Origin: Nitrospira sp. CG24E
GTDB lineage: Bacteria > Nitrospirota > Nitrospiria > Nitrospirales > Nitrospiraceae
Direction of reading: 5' to 3'
Assembly: GCA_002869895.2 (NCBI GenBank)
Contig: NEWP02000021.1
Location: 91,491 to 155,490 of the forward strand
DNA length: 64,000 bases
In this document: one piece after another, positions 3,681 through 34,934 of the stretch
Layout of the letters: each line of letters opens with the position of its first letter
How positions within the stretch are numbered: position 1 is the stretch's first letter
Made by a program: the position numbers and the translations under genes
The notes under the pieces: generated by a model
Databases searched by the model: none
Told to the model about the DNA's origin: nothing
The model's input: the letters and a program-made list of their open reading frames with translations, nothing else

Positions 3681-3709
3681 TAGAGGTTCTCCTGAACCCC
3701 TTCTCGATA

Positions 3710-3828
3710 GGCTGTTCAAAAAGACCTTCCAGCAAGGCCGCAGCGAGTGAGGGGCCGAGGCGTACCCTTGAGGTACGTTGAGGGTCTGAACGATGCGAGA
3801 ACGAAGCTGGAGGGCTTTTTCAACAGCC
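3710..3828 (+). repeat. Family B inverted-repeat element, copy 1
   Basis: A 119-base element bounded by GGCTGTTCAAAAAGACC at 3710 and its near-complement GGCTTTTTCAACAGCC ending at 3828. The terminal arms are about 23 bases long with three mismatches. Inside are GAGGCGTACCCTTGAGGTAC, forming a CGTACC / GGTACG hairpin, then GTTGAGG and GCGAGAACGAAGC. The internal words recur at 33872-34056 with different terminal arms. No coding capacity; MITE-like in form. With the copy of family C before it, it fills the 3537-3829 gap. Confidence 0.75.
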
Positions 3829-3829
3829 G

Positions 3830-4009
3830 TTAGTCGGCTTCCGGTTCGGAGCTGCCGTGCTGGTGAGACACTCGGTCTTCGTCGAACATTGCGGCCATCT
3901 CTTCGGCAATCATGTCACGGTCGTTCGGGACGGAAACCAGCGGGATTTCCTTGCGTGGCTTCGGTGGGTCTGCCTTAGGCGGCTCTGGCTGTTTTTGTTC
4001 CTCAGTCAT
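3830..4009 (-). CDS. Small proline-rich hypothetical protein
   Basis: A 59-residue product if translation starts at the ATG at 4009; an in-frame TTG at 4039 would add ten residues. The sequence is charged and proline-rich at the start (QPEPPKADPPKPRKEIP), then acidic (RDMIAEEMAAMFDEDR), with no signal peptide or membrane segment. A TATACT box lies immediately upstream of the ATG, so the transcript could be nearly leaderless. The stop codon almost touches the family B element. The protein looks real from its biased, intact composition, but no function can be assigned. Confidence 0.5.
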   Translation of the reverse strand: MTEEQKQPEPPKADPPKPRKEIPLVSVPNDRDMIAEEMAAMFDEDRVSHQHGSSEPEAD

Positions 4010-4047
4010 GTCTGCAGTATACACCAGGACAACAGTCAAAAGTGGAG

Positions 4048-32618: not shown

Positions 32619-33767
32619 TTACAGGCCTGCGTCTCTGCGCAAGACTTTCGCCTTGTCGGTCTTTTCCCAGGTGAACTCCGGTTCATTCCGACCGAAGTGC
32701 CCGTAGGATGCGGTCTTTCTGAAGATCGGTCGGCGGAGCTTGAGGTGGTCGATGATGCCTTGAGGAGTCAGCGGGAAATGTTTCCGCACGAGCTTATCCA
32801 GACTCTCAACCGCCACCTGTTCCGTGCCCTTCGTGTCGACTAGCACCGAGACTGGGTCTGCCACGCCGATGGCATAGGCGAGCTGCACTTCGCACTTTTT
32901 GGCCAATCCTGAGGCGACGAGGTTCTTCGCAATGTAGCGGGCCATGTACGAGGCCGACCGGTCTACCTTCGTGGGATCCTTGCCGGAGAAGGCGCCGCCT
33001 CCATGGCTTCCGTGGCCTCCGTAGGTATCGACGATGATCTTGCGGCCTGTCAGTCCTGTGTCGCCCATCGGGCCGCCGACTACGAAGCGGCCGGTGGGAT
33101 TGATGTGGTGTTTCACGCTCGATGGGTCGTAGAGCCCCTTCGGCATCACGGGCTTGATCACCTTCTCCATGATATCGCGCTCGATCTGCTTGTTCGTCAC
33201 GTCGGGGCTGTGTTGGGTCGAGACGACGATGGTATCGATCCGCACCGGTTTTCCGTCCCGGTATTCCACAGTCACTTGGGATTTTCCATCGGGGCGGACC
33301 CAGGGCAGGATGTTCTTTTTTCGGACTTCCGCCAATCGCTTGGTGAGACGATGCGCGAGCACGATCGGCATCGGCATGAGCTCGTCCGTTTCATTGGTGG
33401 CATAGCCGAACATCAGTCCCTGATCGCCGGCGCCGCCGGAATCCACACCCATCGAGATATCGCCTGACTGCTGATGGATGGCGGTCAGGACGGAACAGGT
33501 GTGGTAGTCGAATCCCCAGGAGGCGTCGGTGTAGCCGACATCCTTGATGACTTCGCGAATGATGTCCGGAATCTCGACGTAGGCCTTGGTGGAGATTTCA
33601 CCTGCGACGAAGGCAATGCCGGTCGTCAAAATTGTCTCGCAGGCTACCCGGGAATATTTGTCTTTCGCAATAATCGCATCGAGGATTCCGTCGGAGATCT
33701 GATCGGCAATCTTATCCGGATGCCCTTCGGTGACAGATTCAGATGTAAATAAATAATTATGTCGCAT
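32619..33767 (-). CDS. metK: S-adenosylmethionine synthetase
   Basis: A 382-residue enzyme making S-adenosylmethionine from ATP and methionine. The start [20 protein letters not shown] contains the ATP-phosphate histidine. [20 protein letters not shown] near residue 113 and [20 protein letters not shown] near 255 are the family signature sequences. GAGGGG precedes the ATG. A weak promoter (TAGACA / TATACT on the minus strand near 33850 and 33829) lies between the start and a family B element. I looked for a SAM riboswitch in the short leader and found none. Confidence 0.96.
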
Positions 33768-34397
33768 TAGCCCCTCTGGGTTCAGGTGGTCGATAATCGG
33801 ACAAAAGAGTGAATTCTTGCGATAGTATATGAACGAGCCGCGCTTGTCTATTGTCGATTTGTCAGAAGGCTAGGAGCCTGTCCGACATTGCCTTCGTGAC
33901 GAGGCGAAGGAGATGCGGCCAGGTGCGGGGCCACAGGCCAGGAAAAACCGGAGGCGTATTCGCTGGAATACGTTGAGGATTTTTTGGGGCCGAGAACGAC
34001 GCAGATGGATGCAGATCATTCGCCACACTAGAACGGTCAATGTCGGACAGGCTCCTAGGGCGAAGACTGAAAGGACGAGAGAGCTGTTCCCCCCCACGGT
34101 TCCTTGACAGGTATTTTGGGCCGCTTGTAAGATGATTGAAATTTCTGTGTCTATTCAGGCTTTGCTATTCTCCGTAGGACCGACCATAGCTGTCCCTCTC
34201 CACACTCTAGACGAGTTCTTCACGACAACTCTCTCTGTTCGAAGGTTTCAGGGATAATCTTTGCGATGCGAGGAAGGGTAACCGTCGGTATGAAGGGCAA
34301 TCGAGGTTCGATCCCCCATAAGGATGATTCACAGCTGTCCGACTCAGGGTTAAGATGGCACGAGCTCGTGGGTGAGTTTGTCCCATCTTTGGCTTCG
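33768..34397. other. Divergent intergenic region with family B element
   Basis: This 630-base region separates divergent metK and the thioredoxin-like gene. It contains a family B element at 33872-34056. The remainder shows no supported gene; an open frame leading into the thioredoxin-like gene from 34266 lacks a ribosome site. Confidence 0.5.
33872..34056 (+). repeat. Family B inverted-repeat element, copy 2
   Basis: A 185-base element with perfect 19-base terminal inverted repeats: AGGAGCCTGTCCGACATTG at 33872 and its exact complement ending at 34056. Inside are GAGGCGTATTCGCTGGAATAC, forming CGTATTC / GAATACG, then GTTGAGG and CCGAGAACGACGC. These internal words match copy 1 at 3710-3828, but the terminal repeats are unrelated. 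No coding capacity. Confidence 0.85.

Positions 34398-34934
<537 letters not shown>

Follow-up and report, generated by a model that had tools for sequence, protein, structure and literature searches.

Nitrospira miniature transposable elements with unrelated ends and a homologous hairpin core

Results

Two hairpin elements in the window

The window, a 64,000-nucleotide stretch of Nitrospira sp. CG24E DNA, contains two strongly folded non-coding elements (Table 1). One, which we call T2, sits between divergent open reading frames at 32619-33767 (minus strand), which we take from its sequence to be an S-adenosylmethionine synthetase, and 34266-34934 (plus strand), presumably a thioredoxin-fold protein. 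The other, T1, abuts a minus-strand open reading frame (3830-4039) whose stop codon, TAA, is the TTA at 3830-3832 within the adjoining TTAG. Folding z-scores against dinucleotide shuffles were -10.1 for 33872-34056 and -6.7 for 3707-3831. A sequence-only reading of the window had described elements at 33872-34056 and 3710-3828, and both exist as it described. Its account of their terminal repeats needs amendment. The first element does have inverted ends, but the repeat AGGAGCC...GGCTCCT takes in parts of a CTAG duplication, the true limits being GAGCC...GGCTC with CTAG on either side. The arms of the second do pair, but they form an inner hairpin, B-B', in which only B' is a transposon end.

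Table 1. Features of the two elements in the window
Feature	Position	Strand	Basis
Left target-site duplication CTAG (YTAR) of T2 copy	33870..33873		sequence
T2 MITE, 181 bp, ends GAGCCTGTCCGACATTG / CAATGTCGGACAGGCTC, single long hairpin fold	33874..34054	+	sequence, folding
Common core within T2 copy	33927..33999	+	core-only model R2, 66.9 bits, E=2.8e-15
Right target-site duplication CTAG of T2 copy	34055..34058		sequence
T1 hairpin B-core-B', old copy, A end unrecognisable	3710..3828	+	model R1, 128.8 bits
T1 arm B, GGCTGTTCAAAAAG: decoy of end, TCAAAA replacing TGAAAA	3710..3723	+	
Common core within T1 copy	3734..3804	+	model R2, 82.1 bits; copy belongs to training set
T1 arm B', CTTTTTCAACAGCC: IS5-type right end	3815..3828	+	
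TTAG (YTAR) adjoining B' of T1 copy	3830..3833		

Abundance and distribution of the family

The 3.45-Mb genome of the same organism has 73 occurrences of the motif TACGTTGAGG, against four of a reversed control, and the motif lies nearly always within a long imperfect hairpin. A covariance model of the family, built from 37 copies, matched 114 places in this genome at E<=0.01, corresponding to about 110 copies. With up to 85 candidates scored per genome, it also detected the family in every one of the 25 genomes of the genus and in 40 of the 41 close genomes to which these belong; across the phylum 131 of 296 genomes carried matches. Nearly all copies in the genome of origin have one of two end types. 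The commoner, T1, is multicopy, carries no transposase of its own and has ends of the form CAGGnTGn(T/G)GAAAAA, while T2 ends read as given in Table 1. Collections of viral contigs, plasmids and phages, each searched with one pattern or query, gave no match. Nor did the known structured RNAs of Rfam 15 at or above the gathering score. A search of the open literature (most subscription journals lie outside it) turned up neither a description of the family nor a match to its end sequences.

T1 elements have IS5-type ends

Copies with a recognisable left end revealed that the hairpin B-core-B' makes up no more than the right-hand portion of T1. The full order is YTAR, A (CAGGcTGCgGAAAAAC), spacer, B (CAGGaTGCTCAAAAAG), core, B' (CTTTTTCAGCATCCTG), YTAR, with A lying 75-77 nt upstream of B in Nitrospira and 28 nt upstream in metagenome-assembled genomes (MAGs) of Deltaproteobacteria recovered by a collection scan. 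A is recognisable in about 10 of 46 copies in the genome of origin. Of 91 T1 copies, 39 have YTAR after B' and 3 have it before B; the hairpin B-B' was ruled out as the transposon itself, B having no flanking YTAR. A promoter upstream of B was likewise ruled out, as the common upstream sequence is the A end plus spacer. Arm B reads TCAAAA where real ends read TGAAAA, which accounts for a conserved C.C mismatch in the hairpin. B is thus a decoy rather than a transposon end, and its pairing with B' is not explained by transposase recognition. In 26 of 73 copies (our own count) the stop codon of an open reading frame of at least 80 codons falls exactly at the end of B', at least partly because YTAR contains TAG/TAA.

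Scoring of T1 duplications requires a recognisable A, so copies such as that at 3710 were left out. Three A-bearing copies of the genome of origin (L279, L016 and L015) have exact YTAR duplications and further ones were read by eye in L284, L288 and L290. Among the T1 copies of Deltaproteobacteria MAGs, 24 of 44 had exact 4-bp duplications against 8.3 expected (maximum 18 in 20,000 permutations). A DDE search of relatives recovered two insertion sequences (ISs) with T1 ends, the transposases of which match NCBIfam transpos_IS5_4 with E values of 1e-79 and 4e-70, and a search of 118 family genomes yielded more; L319 and L315 are among the loci with such ISs. Identical 4-bp flanks, nearly all YTAR, surround 13 of 17 such ISs (our own count; 1.31-1.38 kb between recognised ends), and YTAR is the known target motif of IS5 (PMC10359306). 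By sequence, then, A and B', the outer ends, agree with those of IS5-family ISs in related genomes, and a duplicated YTAR flanks them. On the matching ends, transpos_IS5_4 transposases, YTAR duplications and motif, we assign T1 to the MITEs (non-coding, non-autonomous elements), presumably moved by IS5-family transposases.

The window copy of T2 is also bounded by YTAR, and among 16 T2 copies YTAR stands at the left flank of 11 and at the right flank of 12. Exact duplications numbered 5 of 16 against 4.9 expected by permutation, no excess being seen because most flanks are CTAG, and the loci read, from 11 genomes, held no autonomous IS with T2 ends. The target-site duplications and matching transposase that the earlier reading had proposed looking for were therefore both found for T1, whereas for T2 the flanks have the YTAR motif and no transposase was recovered. 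Some T2 elements (L324, L325 and L346) have shrunk to hairpins of 55-56 bp or 104 bp, as if the hairpin tip had been deleted. Lone T2 ends lie straight after YTAR in L323, L328, L332, L337 and L339, partnerless within 2.5 kb.

The same core lies within unrelated ends

A core-only model (R2) trained on T1 copies finds the core of T2 (E=2.8e-15), bearing out the conserved interior of the earlier reading, and on 102 kb of other loci it gave two matches, both known T1 copies. Besides the unrelated T1 and T2 ends, core-bearing elements elsewhere in the phylum have ends that we read as CGAACGCAAGAAATG (with TA flanks in L137 and L152), ATTCTAATTTTAATTC (L141, L142), CGGAGTTGCATTC (L140, where the core match is weak, E=0.0006), GAGCGTGTCTTAAAAGTCC (L138) and GTAGGCGTTCGATTTTGG (L139). 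The core thus occurs in at least four end types; a total of seven is our own reading, several resting on a single locus. Sequence comparison shows a homologous core between MITEs with unrelated ends. The Deltaproteobacterial T1 elements have the ends and layout in common, but none of their cores scored at E<=0.01 with the core model, leaving core homology unsupported in that group.

T1 or T2 ends also surround unrelated palindromes (L288, L290 and L341), which suggests that ends and interiors recombine. On the 3' side of folE an element lies at or near the stop codon in 11 of 14 species of the same genus, with differing arms that are sometimes chimeric (L245, L247). In one Deltaproteobacteria MAG (L231) the apical TA of a T1 element has seemingly received a CGAACGC-type hairpin, and in L191, also from a Deltaproteobacteria MAG, one lies beside a T1 element; insertion of this kind is a possible route for end exchange. 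CGAACGC-type elements also stand immediately before tRNA-like sequences (ggaggggtggccgagtgg...) in L133 and L135. A second palindrome family (TTTCTCACCCGCCC...GGCGGGTGAGAA) occupies the apical loop, or lies beside the core, of some copies in the genome of origin (L016 14119, L037 2039, L056 8383 and L057 2072).

Arms covary and the plus strand appears to be the folded molecule

The arms of the hairpin remain matched to each other as their sequences change. In 44 copies, 6.20 of the 7 outer-arm positions pair when the partner comes from the same copy and 4.97 when it comes from another, a difference reached in none of 20,000 permutations. Over 129 copies, both sides changed in 27 of 35 pairs, including all 17 of the outer helix, and 96.7% of cells were paired against 88.1% after shuffling; sliding the partner arm abolished the pairing signal. 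At one site, 3' of a YbjQ-like gene and with alignable flanks, the arms are GGAGAC/GTCTCC in one copy (L110) and AGACAGC/GCTGTCT in another (L109), one-mismatch intermediates occur (L116, L123 and L264), and the copy in L268 resembles a deletion remnant. B and B' thus stay complementary between copies and species whose arms differ in sequence, one orthologous site included. The compensated arm difference noted in the earlier reading is real, but one arm type alone exists in numerous compensated variants, alongside a second, unrelated type.

Among one-sided states on the plus strand, G.U outnumbers A.C by 132 to 32, and by 41 to 12 (our own count) in an alignment not fitted to the structure. 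This asymmetry suggests that the plus strand, as RNA or single-stranded DNA, is the constrained folded molecule, although common descent or biased mutation could account for part of the G.U excess. Simple terminator scans of the elements gave nothing convincing.

Discussion

The usual definition of a MITE rests on its ends. The family described here is a MITE of known class with an unusual property, in that its ends are exchangeable and the fold of its interior is retained, with covariation that is clear in a large number of copies. The interpretation of the sequence-only reading is partly supported. We consider it probable that these elements are MITEs built round a portable hairpin. IS5-family transposases, acting on A and B', would move T1, and the folded plus strand would come under constraint after insertion. 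The most likely cause of that constraint would be a stable transcript hairpin at gene ends, which may make an insertion tolerable or useful, with a putative terminator- or 3'-UTR-like function. The hairpin would then be kept after the transposon ends decay, and ends and interiors would be swapped through recombination and nested insertion. More tentatively, and with rather less confidence than in this mechanism, the structured hairpin may be mobile cargo in itself. It would be kept as a folded plus strand and outlive its ends, having passed into several end systems, of which T1 and T2 sit at YTAR and the others apparently at TA, in Nitrospirota and possibly in adjacent phyla.

The main rival to a transcript-hairpin function is correction of quasi-palindromes by template switching, in which one arm is copied from the other during replication, so that complementarity maintains itself, and the MITE simply carries the hairpin along, free of selection. 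In its favour are the long imperfect hairpins, the exchange of half-elements and the matched replacement of several bases at one orthologous site (L109 versus L110). We nevertheless regard it as unlikely, since the one-mismatch intermediates at that site persist, the C.C mismatch and internal loops are conserved uncorrected, and the strand-specific asymmetry of G.U over A.C is not predicted by correction alone. Less likely still are two ordinary MITE families whose interior is common only because one was once built from the other. The falling of nearly all copies of the genome of origin into T1 and T2 does define two MITE families and bears out half of the refuting condition that the earlier reading had set, yet the homologous core, the diverse and compensated T1 arms and the further unrelated ends elsewhere in the phylum, flanked by TA as well as YTAR, show that they are not ordinary ones. 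An origin as REP-like palindromes, with a RAYT or IS200-type single-strand transposase as mover, is very improbable: two RAYT-like genes and one IS200-like gene are present in the genome of origin and the TAG beside the foot of the hairpin is reminiscent of GTAG REPs (PMC3733652), but this origin is contradicted by the 4-bp YTAR duplications and matching IS5 ends, neither RAYT-like gene has an element in its 3.3-kb locus, a GTAG/CGTC tag is absent, and the elements measure 120-205 bp rather than 20-40 bp. Those RAYT-like Y1 transposase genes (L061 1500-2055 and L062 1060-1863, on C1 and C89), one with an internal stop, and the IS200-like gene (L060 1052-1456, on C28), which carries its own end hairpins, are unlinked to the elements as mover. 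Identity as integron attC sites is unlikely, given dispersed copies with YTAR duplications.

With elements built round a portable hairpin, one can test whether the hairpins of MITEs function as RNAs (terminators or 3'-UTR elements) and how mini-transposons change transposase, and the work yields a covariance model of a repeat that is abundant in nitrite-oxidising bacteria. Like IS5-family MITEs, the elements are short, non-coding and multicopy, with IS5-like ends and YTAR duplication; they differ in that the interior is a conserved covarying hairpin, also found within unrelated ends, and that a decoy end forms the inner left arm. YPAL elements are placed near stop codons. With YPAL, ERIC and Correia/NEMIS (PMC2229807) the family has in common that they are intergenic mini-elements foldable as long transcript hairpins, but hosts, ends and target sites differ, YPAL duplications varying from 3 to 26 bp where those here are YTAR. 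GTAG REPs are 20-40 bp long with a GTAG tag and a RAYT link, and their ends often supply a stop codon (PMC3733652); the foot of the hairpin here likewise adjoins TAG and often supplies the stop codon, but size, tag and RAYT link are all absent. Finally, the Geobacter 'short RNA element' family (PMC2700814) may be a relative: it is also intergenic, and GRCGTAGCGCTGCTACGCC, the palindrome at its centre, is similar to the apex GGCGTAGTT..ACTACGCC found in Deltaproteobacterial copies, a likeness read from these motifs.
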